A DNA stretch of 64,000 nucleotides from Streptomyces cadmiisoli (GTDB lineage: Bacteria > Actinomycetota > Actinomycetes > Streptomycetales > Streptomycetaceae): assembly GCF_003261055.1 (NCBI RefSeq), contig NZ_CP030073.1:5084001-5148000 (forward strand), in the 5' to 3' direction. Position 1 is the first letter of the stretch. Each line of letters opens with the position of its first letter. The notes beneath the pieces were generated by a model that did no database searches, had not been told where the DNA came from, and saw only the letters and a program-made list of their open reading frames with translations. Positions 1,545 to 57,787 of the stretch are shown one piece after another. A program made the translations under genes and the position numbers.

Positions 1545-1559
1545 CTGACGGGTAGTCAG
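1545..1559. promoter_or_regulatory. Palindromic operator, site 1
   Basis: CTGACGGGTAGTCAG, an imperfect copy of CTGACG-N3-CGTCAG, 18 bp upstream of the acyl-CoA ligase ATG (minus strand). It pairs with site 2 in the same divergent promoter region, one site per promoter. Its symmetry and repetition across the window suggest a TetR-type repressor site. Confidence 0.75.
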
Positions 1560-1633
1560 ATAGTGGGGTGAGCGTAGGGCTCGGCGCCTTGTCGGTCCAG
1601 GGGGGCGGGACTAGCCTTCCCGTAGCGCACTAT

Positions 1634-1648
1634 CTGACGGGTCATCAG
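1634..1648. promoter_or_regulatory. Palindromic operator, site 2
   Basis: CTGACGGGTCATCAG with AT-rich flanks, 25 bp before the ATG at 1674. It probably controls the amidohydrolase/acyl-CoA dehydrogenase operon 1674-4958. Confidence 0.78.
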
Positions 1649-1673
1649 ATCTGTATCCACGGCGGAGGGCCCC

Positions 1674-2870
1674 ATGACCGAACTGCCCCGCATCGTCAGC
1701 GTCGACGACCATGTGATCGAACCCGCGCACCTCTTCGAGACCTGGCTGCCGGAGAAGTACCGCGAGCGCGGCCCGAAACCCCTCACCGCCGGTATCGGCG
1801 AGCTCGCCTACGTCGGCGGCAAGTACCGGATCACCATGGACCCGGACGGTCCGCCCACCGACTGGTGGATCTACGAGGACCTGAAGTTCCCGTACAAGCG
1901 CAACATCGCCGCCGTCGGCTTCGACCGCGACCAGATGACCCTGGAGGGCATCACGCGCGCGGAGATGCGACCCGGCTGCTGGGACCCCGCCGAGCGGCTC
2001 AAGGACATGGACCTCAACCACGTCGAGGCCTCCCTGTGCTTCCCGACCTTCCCGCGCTTCTGCGGGCAGACCTTCGCCGAGGCGCACGACAAGGAGGTCG
2101 CGCTGGCCTGTGTGCGGGCCTACAACGACTGGATGGTCGAGGAGTGGTGCGGGGACAGCGGCGGCCGGCTCATCCCGCTGTGCCTCATCCCGCTGTGGGA
2201 CATCGGCCTCGCGGTCGCGGAGATCCGGCGCAACGCCGCGCGCGGGGTGCGGGCGGTCACCTTCTCCGAGATCCCCACCCATCTCGGGCTGCCGTCCATC
2301 CACTCCGGCTACTGGGACCCGTTCTTCGCGGTCTGCCAGGAGACCGGGACCGTCGTCAACATGCACATCGGCTCGTCCTCGCAGATGCCGGCCGCGTCCC
2401 CGGACGCCCCGCCCGCCGTCCAGGCCTCGCTGTCCTTCAACAACGCCATGGCCTCGATGATGGACTTCCTGTTCAGCGGCGTGCTCGTGAAGTTCCCGGC
2501 GCTGCGGCTCGCCTACTCCGAGGGCCAGATGGGCTGGATCCCGTACGCCCTGGAGCGCGCCGACGACGTCTGGGAGGAGCACCGCGCCTGGGGCGGTGTC
2601 CGCGACACGATCCCGGAGCCCCCGTCCACCTACTACTACCGGCAGATCTTCTGCTGCTTCTTCCGCGACAAGCACGGCATCGCCTCGCTGGACGTCGTCG
2701 GCCGGGACAACGCCACCTTCGAGACCGACTACCCGCACGTCGACTCCACCTTCCCGCACACCAGGCAGGTGGCCCTCGACCACGTCGAGGGCCTGGACGA
2801 CGAGACGGTCTACAAGCTGATGCGGGGCAACGCGATCCGGATGCTCGGCCTCGACCTGGACCGCCGGTGA
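1674..2870 (+). CDS. Amidohydrolase family 2 protein (ACMSD-like fold)
   Basis: A 398-residue TIM-barrel metal-dependent hydrolase or decarboxylase of the amidohydrolase-2 group. The N-terminal motif SVDDHVIEP supplies the first metal ligands, HIGSSS is a central histidine strand, and ETDYPHVDSTFP carries the late catalytic aspartate. The family includes hydrolases and non-oxidative decarboxylases, so the reaction is uncertain. It has a close paralogue at 38488 sharing the blocks CFPTFPRFCGQTF and AYNDWMVEEWCG, and both genes lead an operon behind the same operator. The downstream acyl-CoA dehydrogenase begins inside its stop codon (GTGA), so translation is coupled. The ATG at 1674 was chosen because the operator lies immediately upstream. 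Confidence 0.85.
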   Translation: MTELPRIVSVDDHVIEPAHLFETWLPEKYRERGPKPLTAGIGELAYVGGKYRITMDPDGPPTDWWIYEDLKFPYKRNIAAVGFDRDQMTLEGITRAEMRPGCWDPAERLKDMDLNHVEASLCFPTFPRFCGQTFAEAHDKEVALACVRAYNDWMVEEWCGDSGGRLIPLCLIPLWDIGLAVAEIRRNAARGVRAVTFSEIPTHLGLPSIHSGYWDPFFAVCQETGTVVNMHIGSSSQMPAASPDAPPAVQASLSFNNAMASMMDFLFSGVLVKFPALRLAYSEGQMGWIPYALERADDVWEEHRAWGGVRDTIPEPPSTYYYRQIFCCFFRDKHGIASLDVVGRDNATFETDYPHVDSTFPHTRQVALDHVEGLDDETVYKLMRGNAIRMLGLDLDRR

Positions 2871-4000
2871 ACCTGACGTACACCCCCGAGGAGGAGGACT
2901 TCCGGGCGCGGCTGCGGGAGTGGCTGGGCAAGGTGCTGCCCACGCTGCCCGCCAAGCCGTCCCCCGACGACTGGCCGGGCCGCCGCGCCTACGACCTCGG
3001 CTGGCAGCGGACGCTGTACGACGCCGGGTACGCCGACGTCCACTGGGACGCGTCCCCGACCGTGCGGCTGATCTTCCTGGAGGAGACGGAGAAGGCGGGC
3101 GCGCCCTACGTGGGGGCGAACTTCGTGGGGCTGCTGCACGCGGGCCCGACCATCGCCGCCGAGGGCACGCCCGCGCAGCGGGAGCGCTGGCTGCCGCCGA
3201 TCCTGCGCGGGGAGGAGGCCTGGTGCCAGGGCTTCAGCGAACCGGACGCCGGCTCCGACCTGGCGTCCCTGCGCACCCGCGCGCGCCGGGACGGCGACCA
3301 CTACCTGGTGAGCGGGTCGAAGATCTGGACCTCGCACGCGGAGGCCGCCGACTGGTGCGAACTGCTGGTGCGCACCGACCCGCGGGCGCCCCGGCACGGG
3401 GGGATCACCTGGCTCGCCATGCCCATGGACGCGCCGGGCGTGACCGTACGGCCGCTGCGCACGCTTGCCGGTTCGGCTGAGTTCGCCGAGGTGTTCCTCG
3501 ACGACGTGCCGGTACCGGTGGCCAACCGGGTGGGGGAGGAGAACGACGGCTGGCGGGTGACCATGGTGACGCTGTCGTTCGAGCGCGGTACGGCGTTCGT
3601 CGGGGAGGTCGTGGCCTGCCGGCGGGTGCTCGGCGAACTGGCCCGGGAGGCCCGGTCCAACGGGCGCTGGGACGACCCGGCACTGCGGCGCCGCCTCGGG
3701 CGGCTCAACGCCGACTTCCTGGCGCTGTGGCGGCTGACCCAGTGGAACGTGAGCGAGGCGCAGGCGACGGGCGGCGTCCCCGGCGTCGGCGGTTCGGTCT
3801 TCAAGCTGAGGTACTCGCACGCGCGTCAGGAGCTGTACGACGCCGCGGCCGACGTGCTGGGTCCCGACGCGCTGGACCTCGGGAGGCCGTGGACGCTGGA
3901 CCGGCTCTCCTCGCTGTCGTACACCATCGCGGCCGGCACCTCGCAGATCCAGCGCAACATCGTGGCCGAACGCATCCTCGGCCTGCCGAAGGGGCGGTGA
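2867..4000 (+). CDS. Acyl-CoA dehydrogenase, large-type subunit
   Basis: A 377-residue FAD-dependent acyl-CoA dehydrogenase that would introduce an alpha,beta double bond into a CoA thioester. Typical blocks are visible: WCQGFSEPDAGSDLAS (flavin/substrate region), KIWTSHAEAADW, and the C-terminal GTSQIQRNIVAERILGLP. The frame is open far upstream, but the real start is the GTG at 2867, which overlaps the amidohydrolase stop in GTGA and restores normal family length. The next gene, 10 bp downstream, is a shorter relative. Adjacent unequal pairs like this often form alpha2beta2 enzymes in actinobacterial steroid degradation (FadE26/27, FadE28/29); heteromer formation here is inferred. Confidence 0.88.
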   Translation: MNLTYTPEEEDFRARLREWLGKVLPTLPAKPSPDDWPGRRAYDLGWQRTLYDAGYADVHWDASPTVRLIFLEETEKAGAPYVGANFVGLLHAGPTIAAEGTPAQRERWLPPILRGEEAWCQGFSEPDAGSDLASLRTRARRDGDHYLVSGSKIWTSHAEAADWCELLVRTDPRAPRHGGITWLAMPMDAPGVTVRPLRTLAGSAEFAEVFLDDVPVPVANRVGEENDGWRVTMVTLSFERGTAFVGEVVACRRVLGELAREARSNGRWDDPALRRRLGRLNADFLALWRLTQWNVSEAQATGGVPGVGGSVFKLRYSHARQELYDAAADVLGPDALDLGRPWTLDRLSSLSYTIAAGTSQIQRNIVAERILGLPKGR

Positions 4001-4010
4001 TCAGCGCGCC

Positions 4011-4958
4011 ATGCGTTTCCAACTCACCGAGGACCAGCGGGCCTTGCGGGACGGGGTGCGGCAGTTGCTGGCGCGGCGGTTCGACGCCGACGCGCTGCGG
4101 GCCGCGGTGCGGCGGCCGGGACGGCTCGACCGGGCGCTGTGGCGGGAGCTGGGCGCCGCGGGCTTCTTCGCGCTCCGGCTGCCCGAGGCGGACGGCGGGG
4201 TCGGACTCGGGCTGCCCGAGGCGGTGTTGGCGTTCGAGGAGGCGGGGCGGGCCCTGCTGCCCGGCCCGTTGCTGGCCACGCATCTCGCCGCGGGCGCGGT
4301 GCCCGGCGCGGCCGACGGATCGGTCGTCGTCGCGGCCGCCGGCGGCGGCGGGACGGTGGAGTGGCTGGCGGAGGCCGACGTGGTGCGCGGGGACGCCACC
4401 GGGGCCGTCGAGCTGCGGTCGGTGGACCCGCTCACACCGCTGCACCGGCTGCCCCGCGGGTCCGGGTCCGCGGCGGCGGACGAGCGGGCGGCGGCCCGGG
4501 TGCCCGGCCCGTACACGTCCCCGACCGGCGTACCGGACGCGTCGGCCGCCGTGCTCCTCACCGCCGCGGAACAGCTCGGCTCGGCCGTGCGCACCTGTGA
4601 GCTGGCGGTGCAACACGCCCGGACCCGCGAGCAGTTCGGACGGCCGATCGGCGCCTTCCAGGCCGTGCAGCACCTGTGCGCGGGGATGCTGGTCCGGGTG
4701 GAGGTGGCCCGCGTCGCCGTGTACGCGGCGGCGGTCACCGCCGACCCCGTGGACGTCGCCGCGGCCCGGCTGCTCGCCGACGAGGCGGCGGTGCGCGGCG
4801 CCCGCGACTGCCTCCAGGTGCACGGCGGCATGGGCTTCACCTGGGAGGCAGAGGTGCACCTGCACCTGAAGCGGGCCTGGGTGCGGACCCACCGTACGGG
4901 CGGCGCTACGGAGAGTGAGGAGATGTTGGCGGACGCACTGACGGCCGGCACGCGCTGA
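4011..4958 (+). CDS. Acyl-CoA dehydrogenase, short partner subunit
   Basis: A 315-residue acyl-CoA dehydrogenase homologue, shorter than the usual 380 or so residues because the middle beta domain is reduced. The C-terminal helical domain is intact, with REQFGRPIGAFQAVQH and LQVHGGMGFTWEAEVHLHLKR, the signature of FadE28-like subunits whose glutamate follows the HGGMGFTW block. It lies 10 bp after a full-length relative and is the last gene of the operon starting at 1674. I infer that it works as a heteromer with the preceding gene rather than alone. The ATG is preceded by the overlapping tail of the upstream gene, and no strong ribosome-binding site is seen, which fits coupling. Confidence 0.82.
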   Translation: MRFQLTEDQRALRDGVRQLLARRFDADALRAAVRRPGRLDRALWRELGAAGFFALRLPEADGGVGLGLPEAVLAFEEAGRALLPGPLLATHLAAGAVPGAADGSVVVAAAGGGGTVEWLAEADVVRGDATGAVELRSVDPLTPLHRLPRGSGSAAADERAAARVPGPYTSPTGVPDASAAVLLTAAEQLGSAVRTCELAVQHARTREQFGRPIGAFQAVQHLCAGMLVRVEVARVAVYAAAVTADPVDVAAARLLADEAAVRGARDCLQVHGGMGFTWEAEVHLHLKRAWVRTHRTGGATESEEMLADALTAGTR

Positions 4959-7383: not shown

Positions 7384-7398
7384 CTAACGGGTCGTCAG
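7384..7398. promoter_or_regulatory. Palindromic operator, site 3
   Basis: CTAACGGGTCGTCAG, one mismatch in the left half-site. It is the only good copy in the divergent region between the cyclase and the SDR-acyl-CoA dehydrogenase-alcohol dehydrogenase operon, and ends 22 bp before the GTG at 7421. Confidence 0.73.
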
Positions 7399-7420: not shown

Positions 7421-8332
7421 GTGGGGAACTTCTTGGCAGGCGGGGTCGTCGCCGTGACCGGGGCCGGCCGGGGTATCGGGCGGGCGGTGGCGCTCGCGTC
7501 GGCCGCGGCCGGGGCGCGGGTGGTGGTCAACGATCACGGGGTGACCGTCGACGGTGCCTCACCGGGCGGCGAGCCGGCGGCGGCCGTGGTCAAGGAGATC
7601 GAGGCGCTGGGCGGCGAGGCCGTCGCGGTGTCCGACGACATCTCCACCATGGCCGGCGGCCAGCGGGTCGTGGACACGGCGCTGGAGTCGTACGGACGGC
7701 TCGACGGTGTCGTGTGCGTCGCCGGGATCCTGCGCGAGCGGATGCTGTTCAACATGACCGAGGAGGAGTGGGACCCGGTCGTCGCCACCCACCTCAAAGG
7801 GACGTTCACGGTGTTCCGGGCCGCGTCGGCCGTGATGCGCAACCAGCGGTCGGGCACCCTGATCGGTTTCACCAGCGGCAACCACCAGGGGTCCGTCTCG
7901 CAGGCCAACTACAGCGCCGCCAAGGGCGGGATCATCTCGCTCGTGCGCAGCGCCGCGCTGGGGCTGCACAAGTACGGCGTGACGGCGAACGCGGTGGCGC
8001 CCGTGGCCCGCACCCGGATGTCCGCGAACGTGCCCATGGAGTTGGCGGAGATCGGCGAACCGGAGGACGTGGCCGCGCTCGTGGTCTACCTGCTGTCGCG
8101 GCGGGCCCGGGAGGCCGGTGTCACCGGGCAGGTCTACACGATCGCCGGGCCGAAGATCGCGGTGTGGGCGCAGCCGAGGGAGCTGCGGGCGGCGTACGCC
8201 GAGGGCTCCTGGACGCCGGAGCGGATCGCGGACTTCCTGCCGGGGACGGTGGGCGTGGACCCGATGCCGCTGCTGGAGCGGGTGGCGGGGATGGAGCGGG
8301 CGGCCAAGGAGGGGGCCCGGCCGAACACGTAG
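7421..8332 (+). CDS. SDR oxidoreductase, MFE-2-like hydroxyacyl-CoA dehydrogenase
   Basis: A 303-residue classical short-chain dehydrogenase with an extended C-terminus. The NAD(P)-binding motif is TGAGRGIG (about residues 13-20), the catalytic serine is in FTSGN, and the YxxxK pair is in NYSAAKGG. The longer C-terminal region (KIAVWAQPRELRAAYAEG onward) resembles (3R)-hydroxyacyl-CoA dehydrogenases of the multifunctional-enzyme type. It probably oxidises a 3-hydroxyacyl-CoA. The GTG start follows GGGAAGGGG. It heads a three-gene operon with an acyl-CoA dehydrogenase (26 bp gap) and an alcohol dehydrogenase, behind operator site 3. Confidence 0.82.
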   Translation: MGNFLAGGVVAVTGAGRGIGRAVALASAAAGARVVVNDHGVTVDGASPGGEPAAAVVKEIEALGGEAVAVSDDISTMAGGQRVVDTALESYGRLDGVVCVAGILRERMLFNMTEEEWDPVVATHLKGTFTVFRAASAVMRNQRSGTLIGFTSGNHQGSVSQANYSAAKGGIISLVRSAALGLHKYGVTANAVAPVARTRMSANVPMELAEIGEPEDVAALVVYLLSRRAREAGVTGQVYTIAGPKIAVWAQPRELRAAYAEGSWTPERIADFLPGTVGVDPMPLLERVAGMERAAKEGARPNT

Positions 8333-8358: not shown

Positions 8359-9507
8359 GTGGAGTTCGGGTTCACCGAGGCGGACCGGGCGTTCCGGCGC
8401 GAAGCCAGGGCGTGGCTCGCCGCGCACGCCGATGCCGGGCAGGACCGCCGCACCTGGGAGCGCACCCTCGGCAAGGCCGGCTGGATCGGCCTCGGCTGGC
8501 CCGAGGACGGCTGGGGCAACCGCGTGGCGACGCTGACCCAGCAGGTCGCGTGGGCGGAGGAGTACGCGCGCTCGCCCGCGCCCCCGCGCTCGGGGCACAT
8601 CGGCGAGAACCTGCTCGCCCCCACCCTCATCGCCCACGGCACCGAGGAGCAGAAGGCCCGCTTCCTGCCCCCGGTCGCCGCCGGTGAGGAACTCTGGTGC
8701 CAGGGCTACAGCGAGCCGGACGCGGGCTCCGACCTGGCCGGGGTGCGCACCGCCGCGGTCCGCGAGCCGGGCGGGACCCACTACCGCGTCACCGGCCGCA
8801 AGATCTGGACCTCGCTCGCCCACGAGGCCGACTGGTGCTTCGTGCTGGCCCGCACCGAGCCCGGCTCGCGACGCCACCACGGGCTCAGCTTCCTGCTGGT
8901 GCCCATGGACCAGCCGGACCGGATCGAGGTCCGCCCGATCCGGCAGATGACGGGCACCAGCGACTTCAACGAAGTCCTGTTCGACGGCGCACGCGCACGC
9001 GTGGAGCACGTCGTCGGCGGCGAGGGCCGCGGATGGCGGGTCGCGATGAGCCTGCTCGGGTTCGAGCGCGGGGTCTCGACACTCGCCCAGCAGATCGGGT
9101 TCGCCGAGGAACTGGGGCAGGTGGTGCGGGCCGCGCTCGACTCCGGCACGGTGTCCGACCCCGTCCTGCGGGACCGGCTGGTGGGGCAGTGGGCCGAGCT
9201 GCGCACCATGCGGTGGAACGCGCTGCGGACGCTCGGCGGTTCGGCGGACGCGGGCGCGCCCAGCGTCGCCAAGCTGCTGTGGAGCGGCTGGCACCAGCGG
9301 CTCGGGGAGCTCGCGATGCAGGTGCGGGGCGCGGCGGCCGGGGTGGGCCCGGCGGACTGGTCGCCCTCGGCGCCGTACGAACTCGACGCGTTGCAGCATC
9401 TGTTCCTGTTCTCCCGGGCCGACACCGTCTACGGCGGTTCGGACCAGATACAGCGCACGATCATCGCCGAGCGCGCGCTCGGCCTGCCGAGGGAACCGAA
9501 GGGCTGA
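8359..9507 (+). CDS. Acyl-CoA dehydrogenase
   Basis: A 382-residue acyl-CoA dehydrogenase with the full three-domain layout. Visible blocks are WCQGYSEPDAGSDLAG, GRKIWTSLAHEADWC, MTGTSDFNEVLFDG, and the C-terminal GGSDQIQRTIIAERALGLP. It should use FAD and pass electrons to ETF. The open frame runs far upstream, but the GTG at 8359 follows GGGAGGA and gives the standard start MEFGFTEADRAFRREAR. It is the second gene of the operon from 7421. A single, unpaired copy here contrasts with the pair at 2867/4011 and suggests a different acyl-CoA step. Confidence 0.87.
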   Translation: MEFGFTEADRAFRREARAWLAAHADAGQDRRTWERTLGKAGWIGLGWPEDGWGNRVATLTQQVAWAEEYARSPAPPRSGHIGENLLAPTLIAHGTEEQKARFLPPVAAGEELWCQGYSEPDAGSDLAGVRTAAVREPGGTHYRVTGRKIWTSLAHEADWCFVLARTEPGSRRHHGLSFLLVPMDQPDRIEVRPIRQMTGTSDFNEVLFDGARARVEHVVGGEGRGWRVAMSLLGFERGVSTLAQQIGFAEELGQVVRAALDSGTVSDPVLRDRLVGQWAELRTMRWNALRTLGGSADAGAPSVAKLLWSGWHQRLGELAMQVRGAAAGVGPADWSPSAPYELDALQHLFLFSRADTVYGGSDQIQRTIIAERALGLPREPKG

Positions 9508-9519
9508 GGGGGCGGTGTG

Positions 9520-10569
9520 ATGCGGGGCGTGGTGTTCGACGGGCGGCGGGTCGAGGTCGTGGACGACCTGGAGGTACGGGATCCGGGGCCCGGCGAGGTG
9601 CGGGTGGCGATCACCGCGGCGGGGCTGTGCCACAGCGATCTGTCCGTGGTGGACGGGACCATCCCGTTCCCCGCCCCCGTGGTGCTGGGGCACGAGGGCG
9701 CGGGGATCGTCGAGTCGGTGGGCGACGGCGTCACGCACGTCGCGCCCGGGGACCAGGTGGCGCTGTCCACCCTTGCCAACTGCGGCACGTGCGCGGAGTG
9801 CGACCGGGGACGGCCGACGATGTGCCGGCGGGCCATCGGACGGCCCGGCCGGCCGTTCTCGAGGGCCGGCCGGCCGGTGTACCAGTTCGCCTCCAACTCC
9901 GCCTTCGCCGAGCTGACGGTGGTCCGGGCCGTACAGGCGGTCCGGATCGGTGAGGGCGTTCCCGCGACGTCCGCCGCGCTGATCGGCTGCGGTGTGCTGA
10001 CCGGTGTGGGGGCGGTGCTGAACCGGGCGCGGGTGGAGCGCGGGGACAGCGTCGTGGTGATCGGCGCCGGCGGGATCGGACTGAACGTGATCCAGGGCGC
10101 GCGGTTGGCTGGTGCCCTGCGGATCGTCGCCGTGGACGCCAACCCGGCGAAGGAGGCGGTGGCCCGGCTGTTCGGGGCGAGCCACTTCCTGACCTCCGTG
10201 GAGGGGGTGCGGGACATCCTGCCGACGGGCGCGGACCACGCCTTCGAGTGCGTCGGCCGGGTCGAACTCGTCCGGGCCGCGGTCGACCTGCTGGACCGGC
10301 ACGGGCAGGCGGTGCTGCTCGGGGTGCCGCCGGCCACGGCCGAGGCGTCGTTCGTGGTGTCGTCGATGTACCTGGACAAGTCGATCCTGGGCTGCCGCTA
10401 CGGCTCGTCGCGGCCGCAGCGGGACATCGCGCTGTACGCCGAGCTGTACCGGGAGGGCCGGCTGATGCTGGACGAGTTGGTGACCCGGACGTATCCGGTG
10501 GAGGACTTCGGCAAGGCGGCCGAGGACGCGGAGGCGGGGCGGGTGGCGCGCGCGGTGCTGACGTTCTGA
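9520..10569 (+). CDS. Zinc-dependent alcohol dehydrogenase
   Basis: A 349-residue medium-chain dehydrogenase. Catalytic-zinc ligands appear in LCHSDLS and GHEGAG, the structural-zinc lobe is CGTCAECDRGRPTMC, and the Rossmann motif is GAGGIGLN near residue 185. It resembles class III/NDMA-type alcohol dehydrogenases of actinobacteria and would oxidise a primary alcohol or reduce an aldehyde. A GTG at 9517 precedes the ATG at 9520; GAGGGGG at 9506-9512 is better spaced for the ATG. It is the third and last gene of the operon starting at 7421. A role in oxidising a pathway alcohol is inferred. Confidence 0.85.
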   Translation: MRGVVFDGRRVEVVDDLEVRDPGPGEVRVAITAAGLCHSDLSVVDGTIPFPAPVVLGHEGAGIVESVGDGVTHVAPGDQVALSTLANCGTCAECDRGRPTMCRRAIGRPGRPFSRAGRPVYQFASNSAFAELTVVRAVQAVRIGEGVPATSAALIGCGVLTGVGAVLNRARVERGDSVVVIGAGGIGLNVIQGARLAGALRIVAVDANPAKEAVARLFGASHFLTSVEGVRDILPTGADHAFECVGRVELVRAAVDLLDRHGQAVLLGVPPATAEASFVVSSMYLDKSILGCRYGSSRPQRDIALYAELYREGRLMLDELVTRTYPVEDFGKAAEDAEAGRVARAVLTF

Positions 10570-13213: not shown

Positions 13214-13266
13214 AGTGCCGGGTCAGGCAACGTTTGCGCGGGGCGAACGTCGCCTGACGCGGCACT
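13214..13266. terminator. 53-bp inverted-repeat element, copy A (convergent terminator)
   Basis: Outer arms AGTGCCG/CGGCACT, inner arms GTCAGGC/GCCTGAC and AACGTT/AACGT. It lies between the convergent MFS and flavin reductase genes. Its right end CTAG supplies the TAG stop of the flavin reductase. It is a sequence relative of copy B at 53036-53100. It is likely a bidirectional terminator and member of a dispersed repeat family. Confidence 0.65.
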
Positions 13267-13876
13267 AGAGGAACCGCCCCCGGTGGAACAGCAGCGGCGC
13301 GTCGTCCGTCCCGGTGGTGCCGAGGGCGGTCACGCGGCCGACCACGATGAGGTGGTCGCCGCCGGTGTGGACGGCGTGGACGGCGCAGTCGATCCAGGCC
13401 AGGGCGCCCGCGAGGCGGGGGGAGCCGGAGACGGGCGCCGCGTCGTGGGCCACTCCGGCGAACTTGTCCCCGCCGCTGACCGCGAAGCCGCGGCACAGCT
13501 CGCCCTGGCGTGAGCCGAGCACGTTCACGCAGAACACGCCCGCGTGCGCGATGCGCGGCCAGGTGGTCGACGTACGGCCGACCATGAAGGCCACCAGGGG
13601 CGGGTCGAGGGAGAGCGACGAGAAGGACTGGCAGGCGAATCCGGCGGGGCCGTCGGCGCAGGGCGCGGTGACGACGGTGACGCCGGTCGCGAAGTTGCCG
13701 AGGACGCGCCGGAACTCCGCGGGGTCGACGGGCGCCCGCTCGTCCGCGCCGACGCAGCGCAGCTCGGGGCGCGGCAGTGCTTCGACCCGGCGCGGCGCCG
13801 CGGAGGTGCCCCGGACGGACCTGAGGTATCGGACGGCGGCGTCCGCCATCCCGGCATGTCCCATCACACCGACCAT
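13265..13876 (-). CDS. Flavin reductase family protein
   Basis: A 203-residue flavin reductase (HpaC/FMN-binding split-barrel) that would supply reduced flavin to a monooxygenase. Family blocks are FRRVLGNFATGVTVVTA, FSSLSLDPPLVAFMV, FCVNVLGSRQGELCRGFA and the C-terminal GGDHLIVVGRV. The frame is open to 13924, but the operator at 13882-13896 lies inside that extension, so translation should start at the ATG at 13876 or an ATG just downstream (13864 or 13855). No strong ribosome-binding site is visible. The oxygenase partner is not adjacent; the flavin monooxygenase at 17169 usually reduces its own flavin. Confidence 0.8.
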   Translation of the reverse strand: MVGVMGHAGMADAAVRYLRSVRGTSAAPRRVEALPRPELRCVGADERAPVDPAEFRRVLGNFATGVTVVTAPCADGPAGFACQSFSSLSLDPPLVAFMVGRTSTTWPRIAHAGVFCVNVLGSRQGELCRGFAVSGGDKFAGVAHDAAPVSGSPRLAGALAWIDCAVHAVHTGGDHLIVVGRVTALGTTGTDDAPLLFHRGRFL

Positions 13877-13881
13877 TGAAA

Positions 13882-13896
13882 CTGACGGAGTGTCAG
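13882..13896. promoter_or_regulatory. Palindromic operator, site 4
   Basis: CTGACGGAGTGTCAG followed by AT, 5 bp from the flavin reductase ATG at 13876. It lies between that gene and the end of the enoyl-CoA hydratase, giving the reductase its own controlled promoter. Confidence 0.75.
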
Positions 13897-13937: not shown

Positions 13938-14759
13938 TCAGCGTCCCCGGAAGCCGGGGGTGCGGCGCTCGACGAAGCTCGCCACGCCCTCCCGTGCGTC
14001 CTCCGTCGCCATGTTGATCTCCTGCGCGGCGGCCTCGGCGGCGAAGGCGGTGCCGCGGTCGGTGTCGAGGGACGCGTTGACGAGCTGCTTGGTCAGCGCG
14101 AGGGCCCGGGTCGGACCCGCCGCGAGCCGGTCGGCCCACTCACGGGCCGTCTTGTCCAGCTCGGCGTCCGGCACGACGCGGTTGACCAGCCCGAGGCGTT
14201 CGGCGTCCGCCGCGCCGAGGGCGTCCCCGAAGAACATCAGCTCCTTGGCGCGCTGCGGGCCGATCAGCCGCGGCAGCAGATAGGCGCCGCCGCCGTCGGG
14301 TACGAGGCCGCGCCGGACGAACACCTCGATGAACCGGGCGGACTCCGCGGCGAGCACGAGGTCGCAGGCGAACGCCAGATGGGCGCCGAGTCCGGCCGCC
14401 GTGCCGTTGACGGCGGCGATCACCGGCTTCTCGCAGTCGAGGACGGCGGCGATCAGGCGCTGGGCGCCGACCCGGAGCGTGCGGGCCACGTCGCCGGCGA
14501 TCCGTTCGCCGGCCGGGGCCGCGCCGCGCAGATCCGCCCCGGCGCAGAAGCCGCGGCCCGTGCCGGTGACGACGACCGCCCGCACGCCGGGGTCGGCGGA
14601 GGCCGCACCGAGCAGTTCGATGATGCGTTCGCGCTGGTCAGGGGTGATCGCGTTGAGCGCCTCGGGCCGGTCGAGGGTGATCCGCGCGACGTGGTTGTCA
14701 GTGGCGTGCGTTATCCATGACGCAGGGGGAGATGCGGACTGCCGGGGGGAGTCGGGCAT
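13938..14759 (-). CDS. Enoyl-CoA hydratase/isomerase
   Basis: A 273-residue crotonase-fold enzyme. The oxyanion-hole segments are GRGFCAGADLRG (about residue 90) and NGTAAGLGAHLAFACD (about residue 139), and the catalytic-acid region reads RRGLVPDGGGAYLLPRL. It would hydrate an enoyl-CoA or isomerise a double bond. It follows the ADP-forming ligase with a 52-bp gap, so the two probably form an operon read from 17040. The C-terminus ERRTPGFRGR is typical of the family. The ATG at 14759 gives an 18-residue Ser/Pro-rich lead before the core; a later start is possible. Confidence 0.87.
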   Translation of the reverse strand: MPDSPRQSASPPASWITHATDNHVARITLDRPEALNAITPDQRERIIELLGAASADPGVRAVVVTGTGRGFCAGADLRGAAPAGERIAGDVARTLRVGAQRLIAAVLDCEKPVIAAVNGTAAGLGAHLAFACDLVLAAESARFIEVFVRRGLVPDGGGAYLLPRLIGPQRAKELMFFGDALGAADAERLGLVNRVVPDAELDKTAREWADRLAAGPTRALALTKQLVNASLDTDRGTAFAAEAAAQEINMATEDAREGVASFVERRTPGFRGR

Positions 14760-14811: not shown

Positions 14812-17040
14812 TCAGCGGCAGACGGCCAGCGCGTCGAGGGCCACGGCCCCCTGCCCCCTGGGCAGCACCATCAGCGGGTTGATGTCGAGTTCCGCCAGGT
14901 CGTCGCCGAGCTCCAGCGCCATGCGCTGCACCCGCAGGACGACTTCGACGAGCGCGTCGAGATCGGCCGGCGGGCGTCCGCGCACCCCGTCGAGCAGGGC
15001 CCGGCCGCGCAGTTCGGTCAGCATGTCCCGGGCCTGGTCCTCGCCGAACGGCGGCACCCGCACCGCCGCGTCCCGCAGCACCTCCACGAGCACACCGCCG
15101 AGCCCGACGGTCACGGTCGGCCCGAAGAGGTCGTCGTGGGTGACGCCGACGACCATCTCCACGCCCTGCTCGACCATCTGGCACACCAGCACACCGTCCA
15201 GCGGGACGCCCTCGTAGCGGGCGATGTCGGTCAGCTCGCGGTAGGCGTCGCGGACCTGCGCGGCCGAGGTCAGCCCGATCTTCACCAGGCCCAGCTCGGT
15301 CTTGTGGGCCAGGCGCGCTCCGGACGCCTTCATCACCACCGGGTAGCCCACCTGCCCCGCCGACCGGACGGCCGCCGCGGCGCTGGTCACCAACTGCTCG
15401 CGCGGCACCCGGATCCCGTAGGCCCGCAGCAGCATCTTGGCCGCGTGCTCGCTCAGCTGCTGCCCCGGCCGCATCAGCTCGCGCGCCTTGCGGAAGGAGG
15501 GCGAGGGGCTGCGCGGGGCGTCGTCGAAGGGGGAGCGGTAGTCGCGTACGAAGCGGTGGTGGGCGAGATGGGCGCGCACCGCCGTGAGGCAGTTGGCGAC
15601 GGAGCGGAAGGTGGCCACCCGCGAGGAGCCGAGCAGCACCTCGCGGTAGGCCGGCTCGGTGCCGACCGGCGACCCCCACACGACGCACACCAGTTTGTCG
15701 GTCTGCTCCGCCGCGTCCACCAGATCCCGTACGAGCCGGTCGCTCAGCGGCGGGAAGGGCCCGGTGATCGGGCAGATCAGCACCCCCACCTCGGGGTCGT
15801 CGAGGATCGCGTCGATGATCTTCCGGCCGCGCCAGTCGCCGACCGGGTGCCCCCCGTTGTCGACCGGGTTGGCCACGTTCAGATACGGCGGGATCCACTG
15901 GTGCAGCTCGGCCTGCCTGGCCTGCGACAGCACCGGCAGCCGCAGTCCGGCCGCCACCGCGAGATCGGCGACGTGCGCGCCCGTGCCGCCCGAGATCGAA
16001 TACACGGCGACACCGTCGGCGCGCGGCGGACGGGCACGGGCCAGCAGGGCCGCGGTGTCCTGGAGCTCGTCCAGCCCGTCGACCCGGATCACGCCGTACT
16101 GCCGCATCGCCGCGTCCACCACCGCGTCCGCGCCGGTCAGCTTGCCGGTGTGGGAGGCGGCCGTGCGCGCGCCGGTCTCGGTGCGGCCCACCTTGACCGC
16201 GACGACCGGCACCTTGCGCCGGGCGGCCCGGTCGGCGGCGAGCAGGAAGGACCTGCCGTCCTTGAGCCCCTCGACATAGGCGGCGATGGCGCCGACCTCG
16301 GGCCGCTCGGCGAACCAGGAGATGAAGTCGGCGGCCTCCAGATCGGCCTCGTTGCCGGTCGGGGCCCAGTGGGAGAGGCGGACACCGAGTTCCTGGAGGG
16401 CGAAGACGGGCCGGCCCTGGTGCCCGGACTGGGTGATCAGGGCGATGGCCGGCCCGTCCAGGTCCTCGCGGAACTCCTCGAAGGCGTTGAGGTTGGTGTT
16501 CGGCCCCAGCAGCCGGGTCCCGGACCGCCGGACGGCGGCGGCGAGACGGGCCTGCGCCGCCGCGCCCTCCTCGCCGGTCTCGGCGAACCCGGCGGCGAAG
16601 GCCACCGCGAACCGCACCTTGGCCTCGGCGAGTTGCTCGACCACCGGCAGCGGGTCGGCGACCAGCAGCACGGCGAGATCGACCTGCTCGGGCAGGTCGG
16701 CGACGGAAGGGACGCAGGGGATGCCGAAGACCGACTCACGGGTGGGGTGGACGGGGTGCAGCCGCGCCCCGACCCGCTCCGCCCATGCCGTCAGCTGCCG
16801 GGTGATCCCGGTGTTCGGGCGCCCCTCGGCGTCCGAGGCGCCGATCACCGCGACGGACTCGGGGCGGAAGAAGCGGTCCAGATCGGGGACCTCCGCGTGC
16901 AGCGGCCGCCCGCTGACGTCCAGGTCCGCCACATCGGCCGGGCGGCCGTGGACGGCGGGGTGGGGCCGCCGCTCGCCGCAGGCGATGACCCGGGCCCGGC
17001 GGGCGTCGGTGGTGAGGGTGCCGTGGGTTGATCCAAGCAT
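14812..17040 (-). CDS. ADP-forming acyl-CoA synthetase (acetate-CoA ligase family)
   Basis: A 742-residue fusion of the alpha-type region (CoA-binding Rossmann domain with FFRPESVAVIGASD, then two ligase-CoA domains) and a C-terminal ATP-grasp beta region (LLRAYGIRVPREQLVTSAA onward). The phosphate-binding block YSISGGTGAHVADL is visible. It forms acyl-CoA using ATP with release of ADP, via a phosphohistidine in the family. It has no acetyltransferase domain, so it is not a PatZ-type fusion. The frame is open to 17115, but the operators at 17083 and 17107 lie in that stretch, so the ATG at 17040 is the start. It is a third chemistry of CoA activation in the regulon. Confidence 0.86.
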   Translation of the reverse strand: MLGSTHGTLTTDARRARVIACGERRPHPAVHGRPADVADLDVSGRPLHAEVPDLDRFFRPESVAVIGASDAEGRPNTGITRQLTAWAERVGARLHPVHPTRESVFGIPCVPSVADLPEQVDLAVLLVADPLPVVEQLAEAKVRFAVAFAAGFAETGEEGAAAQARLAAAVRRSGTRLLGPNTNLNAFEEFREDLDGPAIALITQSGHQGRPVFALQELGVRLSHWAPTGNEADLEAADFISWFAERPEVGAIAAYVEGLKDGRSFLLAADRAARRKVPVVAVKVGRTETGARTAASHTGKLTGADAVVDAAMRQYGVIRVDGLDELQDTAALLARARPPRADGVAVYSISGGTGAHVADLAVAAGLRLPVLSQARQAELHQWIPPYLNVANPVDNGGHPVGDWRGRKIIDAILDDPEVGVLICPITGPFPPLSDRLVRDLVDAAEQTDKLVCVVWGSPVGTEPAYREVLLGSSRVATFRSVANCLTAVRAHLAHHRFVRDYRSPFDDAPRSPSPSFRKARELMRPGQQLSEHAAKMLLRAYGIRVPREQLVTSAAAAVRSAGQVGYPVVMKASGARLAHKTELGLVKIGLTSAAQVRDAYRELTDIARYEGVPLDGVLVCQMVEQGVEMVVGVTHDDLFGPTVTVGLGGVLVEVLRDAAVRVPPFGEDQARDMLTELRGRALLDGVRGRPPADLDALVEVVLRVQRMALELGDDLAELDINPLMVLPRGQGAVALDALAVCR

Positions 17041-17082: not shown

Positions 17083-17097
17083 CTGACGCACTGTCAG
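17083..17097. promoter_or_regulatory. Palindromic operator, site 5
   Basis: CTGACGCACTGTCAG, the proximal member of a close pair upstream of the ligase-hydratase operon (ATG at 17040). Confidence 0.76.
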
Positions 17098-40634: not shown

Positions 40635-40643
40635 GGAGAGCGC

Positions 40644-42648: not shown

Positions 42649-42678
42649 GCCGCCCGCCGGAGCCGGGGGAGGAGACCC

Positions 42679-44409
42679 ATGCTTGATCACGTCATCAAGG
42701 GCGCGACCGTCGTGGACGGCACGGGCGCGCCCGCGTTCACCGCCGACGTCGGCGTGCGCGACGGGCGGATCGCCGCCGTCGGCCGGGTCACCGAGCGGGC
42801 CCGCACCAGCGAGGACGCCTCCGGCCTCGTCCTCGGGCCCGGCTTCGTCGACCCGCACACCCACTACGACGCCCAGCTGTTCTGGGACCCGTACGCCACC
42901 CCGTCCCTCAACCACGGGGTGACCACCGTCGCCGGCGGCAACTGCGGCTTCACCCTCGCCCCGCTCAACCCCGACCGCCCCGAGGACGCCGACTACACCC
43001 GCCGCATGATGTCCAAGGTCGAGGGCATGTCCCTGGTCGCCCTGGAGGAGGGGGCGCCCTGGAACTGGCACACCTTCGGCGAGTACCTGGACGCGCTGGA
43101 GGGGCGGATCGCGGTCAACGCGGGCTTCATGGCGGGGCACTGCGCCCTGCGCCGCCACGTGATGGGCCCGGACGCGGTCGGCGGGCAGCCGAGCGAGGAG
43201 CAGCTCGCGGCCATGGTCCGGCTGCTCCACGACGCGATGGACGCCGGCGCCTGGGGCCTGTCCACCACCCAGTCGTCCACCCACTCCGACGGGGACGGGC
43301 GGCCCGTCGCCTCCCGGCACGCCGCGCCCGACGAACTGCTGGCGCTGTCCCGGGCCGTCGGCGAGCACGAGGGCACCCAGATCGAGGCGATCGTGGCCGG
43401 CTGCCTCGACCAGTTCAGCGACGCCGAGATCGAGCTGTTCGTGGAGATGAGCGCGGTGGCCGGCCGGCCGCTGAACTGGAACGTGCTGACCGTCGACGCG
43501 GCCGTGCCCGAACGCGTCCCGCGCCAGCTCCTGGCGAGCGAGCGGGCCCGGAAGGCCGGCGGCCGGGTCGTGGCGCTCACCATGCCGATCCTCACGCCGA
43601 TGAACATGTCCCTCGGCACCTTCTGCGCGCTGAACCTCATCCCGGGCTGGGGGCCGGTGCTGAGTCTGCCCGTGCCCGAGCGCGTCGCGCGGCTGAAGGA
43701 CCCCGTCGTGCGGGCCGAGCTGCTGCGCCGGGCCGACAGCAGGGAGGCGGGCGTCTTCCGGCGGCTGGCGGACTTCGCGCGGTACGTCGTCGGGGACACC
43801 TACAGCGAGGCGAACCGCGGCCTGACCGGGCGCGTGGTCGGCGACATCGCCGCCGAACGCGGCCAGGACCCGTTCGCCTGCCTGGTCGACATCTGCGCCG
43901 AGGACGACCTGCGCACGGTCCTGTGGCCGATGCCGCCCGACAACGATCCGGCGTCCTGGGCGCTGCGCGCCGAGACCTGGCGGCACGAGGACGTGCTGCT
44001 CGGCGGCTCCGACGCGGGCGCCCACCTGGACCGGATGTGCGGCGCGCCGTACACCACCCGCTTCCTCGGGGACTGCCTGCGCGGCCGGAAGCTGGCGGGA
44101 CTGGAGCAGGCGGTGAAGATGCTGACGGACGATCCCGCGCGGCTGTTCGGACTGCGGGACCGGGGCCGGATCCGGGAGGGCTGGCATGCCGACCTCGTCC
44201 TGTTCGACCCGGAACGCGTCGACGCCGGCCCCGCCACGCTGGTGCACGACCTGCCGGGAGACAGCCCGCGCCTGGACTCCCGCGCGATCGGTGTGCGGGC
44301 GGTCTGGGTCAACGGCGTCGAGGCGATCCGCGACGACGTGGTGAGCGGAGCGGTGCCCGGCCGGGTGCTGCGTTCGGGCCGGGACACGAGGACGGTGAGC
44401 ACCCGGTGA
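42679..44409 (+). CDS. D-aminoacylase-type amidohydrolase
   Basis: A 576-residue amidohydrolase of the N-acyl-D-amino-acid deacylase group (composite beta domain plus TIM barrel). The metal-binding motif is GFVDPHTHYDAQLFWDP (about residues 54-70), with GNCGFTLAP next, and LLGGSDAGAHLDRMC carries the late aspartate. The N-terminal segment HVIKGATVVDGTGAPAFTADVGVRDGRIAAVG is standard. The family cleaves N-acyl amino acids, cyclic imides or lactams. The gene starts 30 bp after the LLM gene and its stop overlaps the aldehyde dehydrogenase start (GTGA). Its place in a CoA pathway is unexplained. Confidence 0.85.
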   Translation: MLDHVIKGATVVDGTGAPAFTADVGVRDGRIAAVGRVTERARTSEDASGLVLGPGFVDPHTHYDAQLFWDPYATPSLNHGVTTVAGGNCGFTLAPLNPDRPEDADYTRRMMSKVEGMSLVALEEGAPWNWHTFGEYLDALEGRIAVNAGFMAGHCALRRHVMGPDAVGGQPSEEQLAAMVRLLHDAMDAGAWGLSTTQSSTHSDGDGRPVASRHAAPDELLALSRAVGEHEGTQIEAIVAGCLDQFSDAEIELFVEMSAVAGRPLNWNVLTVDAAVPERVPRQLLASERARKAGGRVVALTMPILTPMNMSLGTFCALNLIPGWGPVLSLPVPERVARLKDPVVRAELLRRADSREAGVFRRLADFARYVVGDTYSEANRGLTGRVVGDIAAERGQDPFACLVDICAEDDLRTVLWPMPPDNDPASWALRAETWRHEDVLLGGSDAGAHLDRMCGAPYTTRFLGDCLRGRKLAGLEQAVKMLTDDPARLFGLRDRGRIREGWHADLVLFDPERVDAGPATLVHDLPGDSPRLDSRAIGVRAVWVNGVEAIRDDVVSGAVPGRVLRSGRDTRTVSTR

Positions 44410-45869
44410 GCACCCGGCTGTTCATCGGCGGGGAGTGGGTCGAACCGGCGGGCGGCCACTACGCCGTGGTCGACCCGGCGACCGAGGAGACCGTGGGATG
44501 GGCGCCGGAGGCCTCGACCGAGCAGGTGCACGCCGCCTGCGCCGAGGCCCGCGCCGCCTTCGACTCCTGGTCGCGCACCCCCGCCCAGGAGCGCGCGGCG
44601 GTCCTCGCCAGGGCCGCCGACCACATCCGCGCCCGGCTGGTGCCCCACGCCGAACTCGCGCAGGCGGAGACCGGGGCGACGACCCCCACCGCCCGCGCCA
44701 TGCAGGTGGGGGTCGCCGCCGCCCGCTTCCGCCGGTACGCCGCGGTCGAACCCGCCGAGTGGGCGATCGCGCCGCAGATCGGCGAGGGCGGGCGGAAGGG
44801 CGCCGCGTCGGCGCTCGGCGGCGGGGGCGTGCTGGGCGCGCTGGCCGTACGCCAGCCCGTCGGCGTCGTCACCTGCATCACCTCGTACAACAACCCCTGG
44901 GCGAACCCGGCCGGCAAGGTCGCCCCCGCCCTGGCGATGGGCAACACGGTGGTGGTGAAACCGGCCCCGCAGGACCCCCTGTCCGTCTACCGCATGGCGG
45001 AGGCCCTGGACGCGGCGGGCGCGCCGCCCGGCGTGCTCAACGTGGTCTGCGGACGGTCGGTGGAGGTGGGGGAGGCCGCCGTGGCCTCCGCGGACGTCGA
45101 CATGGTCAGCTTCACCGGTTCCACCGCCGTCGGACAGCGCATCGCCGAGGTCTGCGGGCGGGACATGAAACGCCAGCTGATGGAGCTGGGCGGCAAGGGG
45201 GCGGCACTCGTCCTCGACGACGCCGACCTCGGCTCCGCGGTGGCCGGCATCGGCACCACGTTCTCCTTCTACAGCGGGCAGATCTGCACGGCACCGACGC
45301 GGGTGCTGGCACAACGCGGGGTGTACGAGCGGCTGGTCGAGCAACTGGCGGCGTACGCCCGCCGGCTGAAGGTCGGCGACCCCCGCGCGGCGGACACCGT
45401 CGTCGGCCCGGTGATCTCCGCGGCGCACCGGGAGCGGGTGGAGTCGTACGTCGCCCTCGGCCGCAAGGAGGGCGCGGTGACCGTCGTCGGCAGCGAACGC
45501 CCCGACGTGGAACGGGGCTTCTACGTCGCGCCCACCGTCCTGGCCGACTGCACCAACGACATGCGTGTCGCCCGCGAGGAGATCTTCGGTCCCGTCGTGG
45601 TCGTCATCCCCTTCGACGAGGAGGACGAGGGCGTCGCCCTGGCCAACGACTCCGACTACGGCCTGATCGACTACGTCTGGTCGGCCGACGTCTCCCGCGC
45701 CTTCCGGGTGGCACGGCGGCTGCGGGCGGGCGGCGTCGGCGTCAACACCGTCGGCCGCAACATGGAGGCGCCGTTCGGCGGGTTCAAGCGGAGCGGAGTG
45801 GGCCGCGACGTCGGCTCGTACGCCCTGCACGCGTACAGCGAGGTGCAGTCGATCGTCTGGCCGGGGTGA
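44406..45869 (+). CDS. NAD(P)-dependent aldehyde dehydrogenase
   Basis: A 487-residue aldehyde dehydrogenase. Motifs are VKPAPQDPLSVYRMAEAL, FTGSTAVGQRI, the glutamate block LMELGGKGA, the nucleophile region FSFYSGQICTAPTRVL (catalytic cysteine), and EEIFGPVVVVIPF. It oxidises an aldehyde to a carboxylate. The GTG start is inside the deacylase-type gene's stop (GTGA). It is the last gene of the 41527 operon and would convert an aldehyde from the previous steps into an acid ready for CoA activation, which is inferred. Confidence 0.89.
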   Translation: MSTRLFIGGEWVEPAGGHYAVVDPATEETVGWAPEASTEQVHAACAEARAAFDSWSRTPAQERAAVLARAADHIRARLVPHAELAQAETGATTPTARAMQVGVAAARFRRYAAVEPAEWAIAPQIGEGGRKGAASALGGGGVLGALAVRQPVGVVTCITSYNNPWANPAGKVAPALAMGNTVVVKPAPQDPLSVYRMAEALDAAGAPPGVLNVVCGRSVEVGEAAVASADVDMVSFTGSTAVGQRIAEVCGRDMKRQLMELGGKGAALVLDDADLGSAVAGIGTTFSFYSGQICTAPTRVLAQRGVYERLVEQLAAYARRLKVGDPRAADTVVGPVISAAHRERVESYVALGRKEGAVTVVGSERPDVERGFYVAPTVLADCTNDMRVAREEIFGPVVVVIPFDEEDEGVALANDSDYGLIDYVWSADVSRAFRVARRLRAGGVGVNTVGRNMEAPFGGFKRSGVGRDVGSYALHAYSEVQSIVWPG

Positions 45870-56811: not shown

Positions 56812-56928
56812 GTGCCAACCTTCCGGATTCCGCCTGGTGAACGGCCCGCTCATCGTGGGTGCGGCGACACGGACACGACAAGCGAGAGGAAGGTCAAGAG
56901 CAGGCAAAAAAGTTCTGTGAGATGACTC

Positions 56929-56948
56929 ACGTTCATGAACATGAACGT
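56929..56948. promoter_or_regulatory. 20-bp palindrome upstream of the symporter
   Basis: ACGTTCATGAACATGAACGT, perfectly symmetric, 118 bp upstream of the symporter ATG (minus strand). Being AT-rich and not GC-rich, it looks like a regulator site, distinct from the CTGACG family. Confidence 0.55.
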
Positions 56949-56959
56949 CGCCGAAGGTG

Positions 56960-57745
56960 TCAGCGCATCAGCTCCCCGGCGTTGACCAGCAGCGACTGCC
57001 CCGTGATGGCCCGCGCCCGGTCCGAGGCCAGGAACACCGCGGCGTCCGCCACGTCCCCGTCCGTGGCCAGCTCCGGCAGCGCCATCCGGCCGGTCAGCCG
57101 CTCCAGCACCTCGTCCTCGGGTACCCCCTCGGTGTGTGCGGTGAACTGCACGTACGCCTGCACCGGCGGCCCCCACATCCACCCCGGCAGCACGGTGTTG
57201 ACCCGTATCCGGTGCGGCCCGAGCTCCCGCGCGAGCGAGTACATCGCGCTGGTCAGCGCCCCCTTCGAGGCCGCGTACGCCGCCTGCCGCACCTGAGAGG
57301 GGGCCGCCACCGCCGACTGCGTCCCGACGAACACCACCGAGCCGCCGCACTCCTTGAGCCCCGGCAGGCACGCCCGGGTCATCCGCAGCGTGCCCAGCAG
57401 ATTCACGTCGATCACCGAGCGCCAGGTGTCGAAGTCGGCGTCCTGGAGTCCGCCGAAGTGGCTGTCCCAGGCGGCCACGTGCACCACGGCGTCGAGCCGG
57501 CCGAACCGTTCCCGGGCCAGCCCGGCCAGTTCCTCGCACTGCGCCTCGTCGGTGATGTCCGTCGCCCGGTACGCCGTGTGCGCGCCGTCCGGGTCGATCG
57601 AGGCGGCGCTCTTGGCGAGGTTCGCCTCCGTCCGCGCGCCGAGCACGGCGTTCCCGCCGTCCCGTACGACCGCCGCCGCGACCTGGTGGCCCAGTCCGGC
57701 GCCGACGCCCGAGACGACCACGGTCCTTCCCTCCAGCAGTGACAT
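56960..57745 (-). CDS. SDR family oxidoreductase
   Basis: A 261-residue short-chain dehydrogenase. The NAD-binding motif is SGVGAGLGHQ (variant of TGxxxGxG), the serine lies in GTQSAVAAP, and the active-site pair is in YAASKGAL. It ends SLLVNAGELMR. It likely oxidises a secondary alcohol or hydroxyacyl-CoA. It is divergent from the EthD-like gene at 57819, with operator site 15 between them. The ATG at 57745 gives MSLLEGRTVVVSG; the frame is open to 57832. Membership in the regulon is inferred from the operator. Confidence 0.85.
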   Translation of the reverse strand: MSLLEGRTVVVSGVGAGLGHQVAAAVVRDGGNAVLGARTEANLAKSAASIDPDGAHTAYRATDITDEAQCEELAGLARERFGRLDAVVHVAAWDSHFGGLQDADFDTWRSVIDVNLLGTLRMTRACLPGLKECGGSVVFVGTQSAVAAPSQVRQAAYAASKGALTSAMYSLARELGPHRIRVNTVLPGWMWGPPVQAYVQFTAHTEGVPEDEVLERLTGRMALPELATDGDVADAAVFLASDRARAITGQSLLVNAGELMR

Positions 57746-57772
57746 CGCAGACTCCCCGCTCTGGCACTTTCC

Positions 57773-57787
57773 CTGACGGACCGTCAG
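57773..57787. promoter_or_regulatory. Palindromic operator, site 15
   Basis: CTGACGGACCGTCAG, perfectly symmetric in its half-sites, between the divergent SDR (ATG at 57745) and the EthD-like gene (ATG at 57819). Confidence 0.79.

Follow-up and report, generated by a model that had tools for sequence, protein, structure and literature searches.

Why does one short palindrome recur between the genes of a single stretch of a Streptomyces chromosome, and which protein reads it? The question is raised by positions 5,084,001 to 5,148,000 of contig NZ_CP030073.1 of Streptomyces cadmiisoli (64,000 nucleotides, hereafter the window), where a first-pass annotation had pointed to fifteen copies of a CTGACG-type palindrome beside catabolic genes and had nominated a TetR-family protein encoded among them as the regulator. 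Our analysis indicates that these sites, with a consensus of about ATCTGACGGNCCGTCAGAT, are probably the operator of that TetR protein (g26, 25874..26521, minus strand), which would repress genes for the acyl-coenzyme A (acyl-CoA) catabolism of polycyclic isoprenoids until released by a ligand. What the sequence itself shows comprises the sites, where they lie, how they track the g26 TetR across genomes, and the families of the adjoining genes.

Candidate operator sites in the window

The whole window was searched for CTGACGNNNCGTCAG, allowing up to one mismatch, 100 dinucleotide shuffles serving as background. Exactly the fifteen positions of the first-pass annotation were recovered, as compared with a mean of 0.52 and a maximum of 3 matches in the shuffles; the pattern is matched perfectly by three of the 15 sites and with a single mismatch by the other 12. 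When aligned, the sites display constant arms and variable centres, and an outer AT is frequent among them, which gives the full consensus as approximately ATCTGACGGNCCGTCAGAT. A scoring matrix of 23 columns, into which each of the 15 sites entered in either orientation, assigns 20.2-32.8 bits to the sites themselves. The place ranked 16 in the window (14.8 bits, two mismatches) begins at 26515 and overlaps the TetR start codon; rank 17 scores 11.8 bits, and besides the 15 sites and the TetR site the matrix scan found no place above 12 bits in the window. With three mismatches allowed, the search returned 62 matches versus 75 by chance, mostly background and hence uninformative; the signal is in the set with at most one mismatch. 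The number of fifteen thus holds for the strict search, while a sixteenth, weaker site at 26515 has to be added to it.

To place the sites, genes were called anew from the guanine-plus-cytosine content by codon position, a procedure that leaves start positions uncertain. According to these independent calls all 15 sites lie between genes, and a called start is found within 100 bp of the centre of each of them, both in agreement with what had been claimed about intergenic position and about a catabolic gene within some 100 bp. In 13 of 15 cases 8-50 bp separate the site centre from the closest start downstream, and the two exceptions, 17107 (74 bp) and 41424 (96 bp), are the outer members of site pairs. 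Twin sites are spaced, centre to centre, by 24 bp (17083/17107) and 27 bp (32398/32425); in a set of 80 Streptomyces loci, neighbouring sites are most often 27 (27 cases), 24 (10), 72 (9) or 73 bp (7) apart. The kinase and transporter genes, which had been described as free of the operator, indeed carry nothing above 12 bits, nor do the genes at 49775.

The candidate TetR regulator and its probable operator across Actinomycetota

The g26 protein matches PF00440 and PF19352 above the Pfam cut-offs, as expected for a TetR protein with an N-terminal helix-turn-helix and a TetR_C_38 domain. Its predicted structure is all-helical and EthR-like (mean predicted local distance difference test score 84, from a shallow alignment), the nearest solved fold being EthR (Foldseek TMq ~0.76, 18% identity), which is also the best sequence match, in the DNA-binding part. 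The gene is single-copy in this genome, where the remaining TetR matches are weak.

The tie between regulator and operator was followed in a panel of 296 Actinomycetota genomes, in which presence of the TetR was scored at E <=1e-20 and sites were counted as WNCTGACN5GTCAGNW, with a threshold of 4 chosen after the counts had been seen. An orthologue of g26 occurs in 20 of the 296 genomes. At least four flanked sites are present in 16 genomes, all 16 of which hold the TetR; the remaining four TetR genomes (G171, G050, G040 and G016) have 2 sites each, and the 276 genomes lacking the TetR have 3 at most. The distant set comprised 13 TetR loci of 11 genomes (228 kb), and 16 sites above 18 bits were found in 10 of the 13 loci, where 30 permuted palindromic matrices give 0-1. 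Nine of these 13 loci entered an alignment of distant orthologues with 38-51% identity to g26. Their DNA-binding part is 59-72% identical to that of g26 and the rest, after residue 66, 30-43%, while the recognition helix (residues 50-60) retains 73-100% identity, with the lowest value in L171, which comes from a locus without a site.

The weaker site over the TetR start codon (26515..26529) is a candidate for autoregulation, through which g26 may control its own gene. It recurs, at 11.9-15.2 bits, in 80 of 80 Streptomyces loci, whose TetR proteins are 93-98% identical, and sites about 100 bp or less upstream of the TetR gene are found in 3 of the 13 distant loci. The nomination of the TetR at 25874-26521 is thus supported by the genome-by-genome match, by the site at its own start codon and by the operator near distant orthologues.

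Sites beyond the window

The genome measures 10.24 Mb in two contigs and contains 45 matches to CTGACN5GTCAG, 10 of them in the window (7 for the reversed-pattern control), while WNCTGACN6TCAGNW occurs 41 and 37 times on the two strands (control 2 and 1). Nothing above 14 bits was found in the 20 kb on each side of the window. All 35 out-of-window CTGACN5GTCAG sites were examined, together with 12 further flanked-pattern places chosen by eye; a site above 20 bits is present in 13 of the 35 loci, 13/13 of them intergenic, and in 8 of the 12. With permuted matrices, the number expected per genome is about 2.8 for sites above 20 bits and 0.3 for those above 24 bits, as estimated roughly from 0.55 Mb of its DNA. 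The stronger outside sites are thus real as a set, the weak ones being individually uncertain. Equal frequency elsewhere or inside genes, which would have refuted the first-pass annotation, is not seen: the sites cluster in the window and lie outside genes, although the regulon extends beyond the window.

The same picture is seen in the 80 Streptomyces loci. There, called genes take up 87% of the DNA, and 242 of the 247 sites that score above 20 bits are intergenic; 241 of these 242 lie at most 200 bp upstream of a called start, although these loci are related and the counts non-independent. At least one site above 18 bits was present in the DNA covered for 72 of the 80 loci, and six of the remaining eight are short contigs (about 3-5 kb). 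S. violaceoruber NRRL S-981, from a genus that is convenient for laboratory work, has the TetR and five strong sites.

Among the outside targets in S. cadmiisoli are an operon (L022, 3175-5674) with ChsH2-, ChsH1- and Ltp2-type genes in this order behind a 30.6-bit site, ChsH2 being assigned by its match to ChsH2 chains among solved structures and the other two by Pfam and 47% identity to g31 of the window; a DUF35-thiolase pair (L033); an isochorismatase with a PNPOx-type gene (L034); a nitronate monooxygenase (NMO)/CoA-ligase pair (L035); a CoA ligase/hydratase/DUF35/thiolase group (L036); and a thiolase with a P450 (L136). An isochorismatase-family gene, 2.2 Mb from the window (L185, 10774-11415), has its own 30.5-bit site, and its homologues (~50%) adjoin the TetR gene or sit one gene from it in 7 of the 13 distant loci. 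Unexpectedly, a tyrosinase gene is among the apparent targets: it follows a small gene that lies 160 bp behind a 31.4-bit site (L026, 3001). A site of 29.5 bits (L141, 3003) has no called start within 300 bp.

Window genes behind the probable operator

The Pfam scan covered 40 of the 54 called window genes, and the following families rest on it unless other evidence is given. The operator at 1545..1559 has its centre 25 bp before an acyl-CoA ligase gene (g1, 19..1527, minus), and that at 1634..1648 precedes the operon g2-g3-g4, coding for an Amidohydro_2 protein (g2, 1674..2870, plus), an acyl-CoA dehydrogenase (g3, 2867..4000, plus; nearest solved chains Tcur3483 (6wy9) and 4x28) and a member of the acyl-CoA dehydrogenase family with no match to the middle domain (g4, 4011..4958, plus); both sites are supported by pattern, matrix and start distance. 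The operator at 7384..7398 stands before g7-g8-g9, on the plus strand, with a short-chain dehydrogenase/reductase (SDR; g7, 7421..8332), an acyl-CoA dehydrogenase (g8, 8359..9507) and a zinc-type alcohol dehydrogenase (g9, 9517..10569), and is 55 bp from the start of the cyclase-family gene g6. On the minus strand, a flavin reductase gene (g12, 13265..13876) follows the operator at 13882..13896, and the operon g14-g13, with an acyl-CoA synthetase of the ADP-forming type (g14, 14812..17040) and an enoyl-CoA hydratase/isomerase (g13, 13938..14759), follows the 24-bp twin at 17083..17097 and 17107..17121, the second member of which is likewise supported by pattern, matrix and start distance. The operator at 18631..18645 precedes g16-g17, a DoxX-like and a DUF35 (ChsH2_C) protein (18675..19525, plus), at 171 bp from the start of the FMO-type gene g15.

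Two operators stand between divergent genes further on, at 22857..22871 before an SCP2/Ltp-type thiolase gene (g21, 21686..22852, minus) and at 22921..22935 before g22-g23, an acyl-CoA dehydrogenase and a member of the F420H2-quinone reductase family (22952..24609, plus). The 27-bp twin serves two sides, 32398..32412 standing before g31-g30-g29 (Ltp2-like protein with 6ok1_A as its match, DUF35 protein and enoyl-CoA hydratase; 30022..32375, minus) and 32425..32439 before an acyl-CoA ligase gene (g32, 32463..34046, plus). Directly behind 38452..38466 are g36-g37-g38 (38467..41414, plus), a DitZ/PtmU3-like protein, an F420-type luciferase-like monooxygenase (LLM) family oxidoreductase and an SDR; the outer (41424..41438) and inner (41486..41500) operators precede g39-g40-g41, an LLM oxidoreductase, an Amidohydro_3 protein and an aldehyde dehydrogenase (41527..45869, plus). 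The last operator, 57773..57787, lies between the divergent genes g51, an SDR (56960..57745, minus), and g52 (57819..58658, plus). The estimate of about 28 covered genes holds, whereas of the four SDRs announced in the first-pass annotation three are found in covered operons (7421, 40644 and 56960), the supposed fourth being the alcohol dehydrogenase at 9517.

The g52 protein belongs to no known family, having no Pfam or NCBIfam match; it is conserved, with homologues in distant genomes at 46% identity near the TetR (L169) and at 35% behind a site (L189), and is possibly a new protein family belonging to the regulon. NCBIfam searches with 10 window proteins gave no precise function, since among the matches listed only the LLM proteins g37 and g45 were above the cut-off. 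In this genome g45 (LLM/F420 type, 48888-49736) lacks a good site, the upstream DNA reaching 7.2 bits, although its homologues (55%) stand behind the operator in two distant loci (L169 and L204). Within 27556-38262, four site-bearing catabolic genes, g29-g32, sit between an afsK-like kinase gene, a label taken from the first-pass annotation and outside our Pfam scans, and an AfsR-like SARP gene (BTAD, NB-ARC and TPR by Pfam).

Enzyme set and likely substrate

The gene content behind the operator was followed into 20 distant loci, picked for holding pattern sites and therefore used for gene content only and not for enrichment (the loci L179 and L205 share a site). The Pfam tally covered 126 of 138 site-linked distant proteins (12 left out) and comprises acyl-CoA dehydrogenases (16), SDRs (15), LLM (8) and Amidohydro_2 (8) proteins, CoA transferases (7), thiolases (7) and AMP-binding proteins (5). 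The best matches of window proteins behind distant operators reach 52-69% for g2 (7 distinct genes), 57-66% for g40 (4 genes), 63% for g7, 61% for g3, 56% for g6, 55% for g45 and 49-52% for g8; for g32 they are 54-57% in three full-length cases and near 33% in others.

Comparison with solved structures brings g2 and g36 to DitZ (E 4e-56 and 1e-54), with PtmU3 also near both, and g31 to the lipid-transfer protein of 6ok1 (E 1.6e-96), whose partner chain is the DUF35 protein ChsH2. By role we take DitZ and PtmU3 to be diterpenoid enzymes and the relatives of g31 and g3, among them 4x28 (presumably FadE26), to be steroid enzymes. The best solved match of the ligase g32 is a feruloyl-CoA synthetase. 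Furthermore, in one distant genome (G025, locus L188) the operator stands before a run of four genes coding for a crotonase above the cut-off of NF005925 (presumably EchA20), a protein matching 6con_A (presumably IpdA) at 2.4e-95, a 242-residue protein and a FabK/NMO-type protein, which in our reading would be echA20-ipdA-ipdB-ipdC; similar runs, judged by length and order, follow sites in L190, L193 and L203. This enzyme set points to acyl-CoA breakdown of polycyclic isoprenoids.

The IpdAB-type cluster of the same genome

In distant genomes IpdA-type genes sit behind the CTGACG operator. S. cadmiisoli has its IpdA orthologue (58%) at 6.470 Mb, where the clustered genes code for SDRs, two acyl-CoA dehydrogenases, a thiolase, a protein of the NMO type and a TetR that bears a TetR_C_24 domain. 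The latter is a separate gene at 6.466 Mb, called KstR2-like here by its position and not by comparison with KstR2. The 40 kb around the cluster, the only region scanned for it, did not contain a KstR-like pattern. Inspection by eye showed a palindrome-like sequence common to two divergent promoters of the cluster (L210, 13640-13725, and the L210/L211 junction), in the forms CCTAACAAGTGTTTGGTAGG and CACCAAACATTTGTTAGGTG, which the scan for exact 6-bp arms did not report; it is perhaps the operator of the KstR2-like TetR.

Across 101 genomes of the same genus, scored at E <=1e-120 for g2 and E <=1e-60 for IpdA, both genes are present in 75 and absent from 24, the two being discordant only in G314 and G371. 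Since the loci are 1.4 Mb apart here, this co-occurrence is more than linkage (ancestry uncorrected). Genomes with IpdA have a median of 20 sites (11-37), versus 6 (0-22) in those without it. The HsaC/BphC model TIGR03213 had no match in this genome at E 1e-3, in a search without a positive control; 5 of 14 control genomes gave matches, below the cut-off, and none of them is known to be a steroid degrader.

Weighing of the explanations

Several observations count against the proposed regulation by g26 and against its supposed catabolic scope. The Fisher p of 4e-23 for the association of TetR and sites ignores shared ancestry and depends on a post hoc threshold, and the KstR2-like TetR, too, is weakly associated with sites (p 0.001). 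In G171 and G246, both of the same genus, the TetR is accompanied by 2 and 6 sites; G246 has also lost the start-codon site, which is itself partly coding, its upstream flank being conserved anyway. No site above 18 bits was found in 3 of the 13 distant TetR loci, nor near the TetR in the Streptomyces loci L110 and L119 (14 and 20 kb). The IpdAB-type cluster lacks a CTGACG-type site, the best place there having 11.7 bits inside a gene, and many sites occur in the IpdA-less genomes G338 (16), G296 (16) and G371 (22), the last two being less than 80% complete. Some strong outside sites stand at the tyrosinase gene (L026), on the other side of L033 at an M15 peptidase gene, and at genes for aspartate decarboxylase (L017), a protein of capsule type (L038) and an NlpC/P60 protein (L133). 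Of the formula of one repressor and one pathway, the first half is thus supported and the second tentative, given the tyrosinase, peptidase and capsule-type targets and a substrate that is itself putative.

That the set arose by chance or as mobile repeats is next to inconceivable: permuted matrices do yield about three sites above 20 bits per genome, by which single weak outside sites may be accidental, but the enrichment, the placement and the variable centres between constant arms speak against it, and for the set as a whole such an origin was ruled out by the shuffles and permuted matrices. It is also improbable that another regulator, a KstR2-type TetR or the AraC-type g10, binds the palindrome and merely co-occurs with g26. 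The KstR2-like TetR, taken as a control, is present in 48 of the 296 genomes and enriched in those with at least four sites (8/48 holders versus 8/248 non-holders), a weak association such as would be expected if the pathways travel together. Yet half of the high-site genomes (8 of 16) do without it and fewer than four sites are found in 40 of its 48 holders, while the g26 TetR is found in 16/16 and distant loci share g26 and the operator; as a binder, the KstR2-like TetR was ruled out by its siteless own cluster and its poor match to the site-rich genomes. Slightly less remote, though still quite unlikely, is that g26 activates its targets or is a broader metabolic switch beyond catabolism, as some TetR proteins do activate and some outside sites are at non-catabolic genes; the 8-50 bp between site centres and starts in 13 of 15 cases would be rare for an activator.

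More serious, but still doubtful, is a regulon for non-isoprenoids, namely for branched or aromatic acids, amides or nitrogen-ring compounds. The LLM, flavin reductase, Amidohydro_3, cyclase-family and isochorismatase types found here also occur in nitrogen-compound pathways, and the feruloyl-CoA synthetase match of g32 would fit as well. What argues against this is that, among solved structures, g2, g36, g31 and g3 come closest to enzymes of diterpenoid and steroid metabolism, that ChsH2-ChsH1-Ltp2- and IpdA-type genes stand behind the operator, and that g2 and IpdA are co-distributed.

Comparison with known systems and proposed model

KstR and KstR2 govern steroid catabolism regulons of Mycobacterium and Rhodococcus. 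They resemble the present case in a TetR repressor acting through one palindrome on scattered CoA ligase, acyl-CoA dehydrogenase, SDR and DUF35-Ltp operons, and IpdA/EchA20-type genes stand behind the present operator in distant genomes. The operator is different, however, and g26 is of the TetR_C_38 subfamily, unlike the TetR_C_24 protein of the KstR2-like cluster; the IpdAB-type cluster of S. cadmiisoli does not belong to the present regulon, and the KstR2 trait of a regulator beside IpdAB-type genes is not seen in g26, as the TetR of the cluster does not track the sites. We take the regulon to work like those of KstR and KstR2, but presumably with its own TetR and operator. EthR of M. tuberculosis, the closest relative of g26 in solved fold and in sequence, is known for one divergent target, a Baeyer-Villiger type enzyme, whereas here there are dozens of sites and a different operator. 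Diterpenoid catabolism (dit) and platensimycin tailoring (ptm) share the DitZ- and PtmU3-like proteins g2 and g36, but the 40 of 54 window genes scanned include no ring-hydroxylating dioxygenase and the regulators are different. The Mce3R regulon of mycobacteria is similar in TetR-type control of acyl-CoA dehydrogenase, crotonase, LLM and SDR genes, and differs in that Mce3R is a double-length TetR protein belonging to mce genes.

Binding, repression, the inducer, the substrate, the enzyme activities and the order of steps we infer as follows. A g26 dimer would occupy the promoter, or the DNA just downstream of it, in at least a dozen operons and at its own gene, and keep them off, repression being suggested because the sites are close to starts and the protein is of the TetR family. 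The inducer would be an intermediate of the pathway that binds the C-terminal domain and releases the repressor, most likely an acid or acyl-CoA derived from a steroid-like or diterpenoid-like polycyclic isoprenoid. The regulon would then yield CoA ligases, diiron, flavin and F420 oxygenases and reductases, acyl-CoA dehydrogenases, hydratases and DUF35-Ltp retro-aldolases, which may shorten side chains, open rings and feed the IpdAB-type lower pathway, which is under separate control in the same genome. A more specific version, which we consider speculative and rather unlikely, is an undescribed upper pathway for polycyclic isoprenoids that bypasses the classical aromatising cleavage of HsaC type, in which DitZ/PtmU3-like and luciferase-like oxygenases together with several retro-aldolases of DUF35-Ltp type would open rings of CoA thioesters to give an indanone-propionate-like product for IpdAB; the joint inheritance of g2 and IpdA could then be understood, because the upper pathway would feed IpdAB.

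If the proposed role of g26 is correct, one TetR and one clear operator would provide a handle on a large catabolic regulon in Streptomyces and in distant Actinomycetota. A further operator type would stand beside those of KstR and KstR2, proteins without a role, such as g52, would acquire a context, and the handling of steroid- and terpene-like compounds by soil bacteria would become testable.

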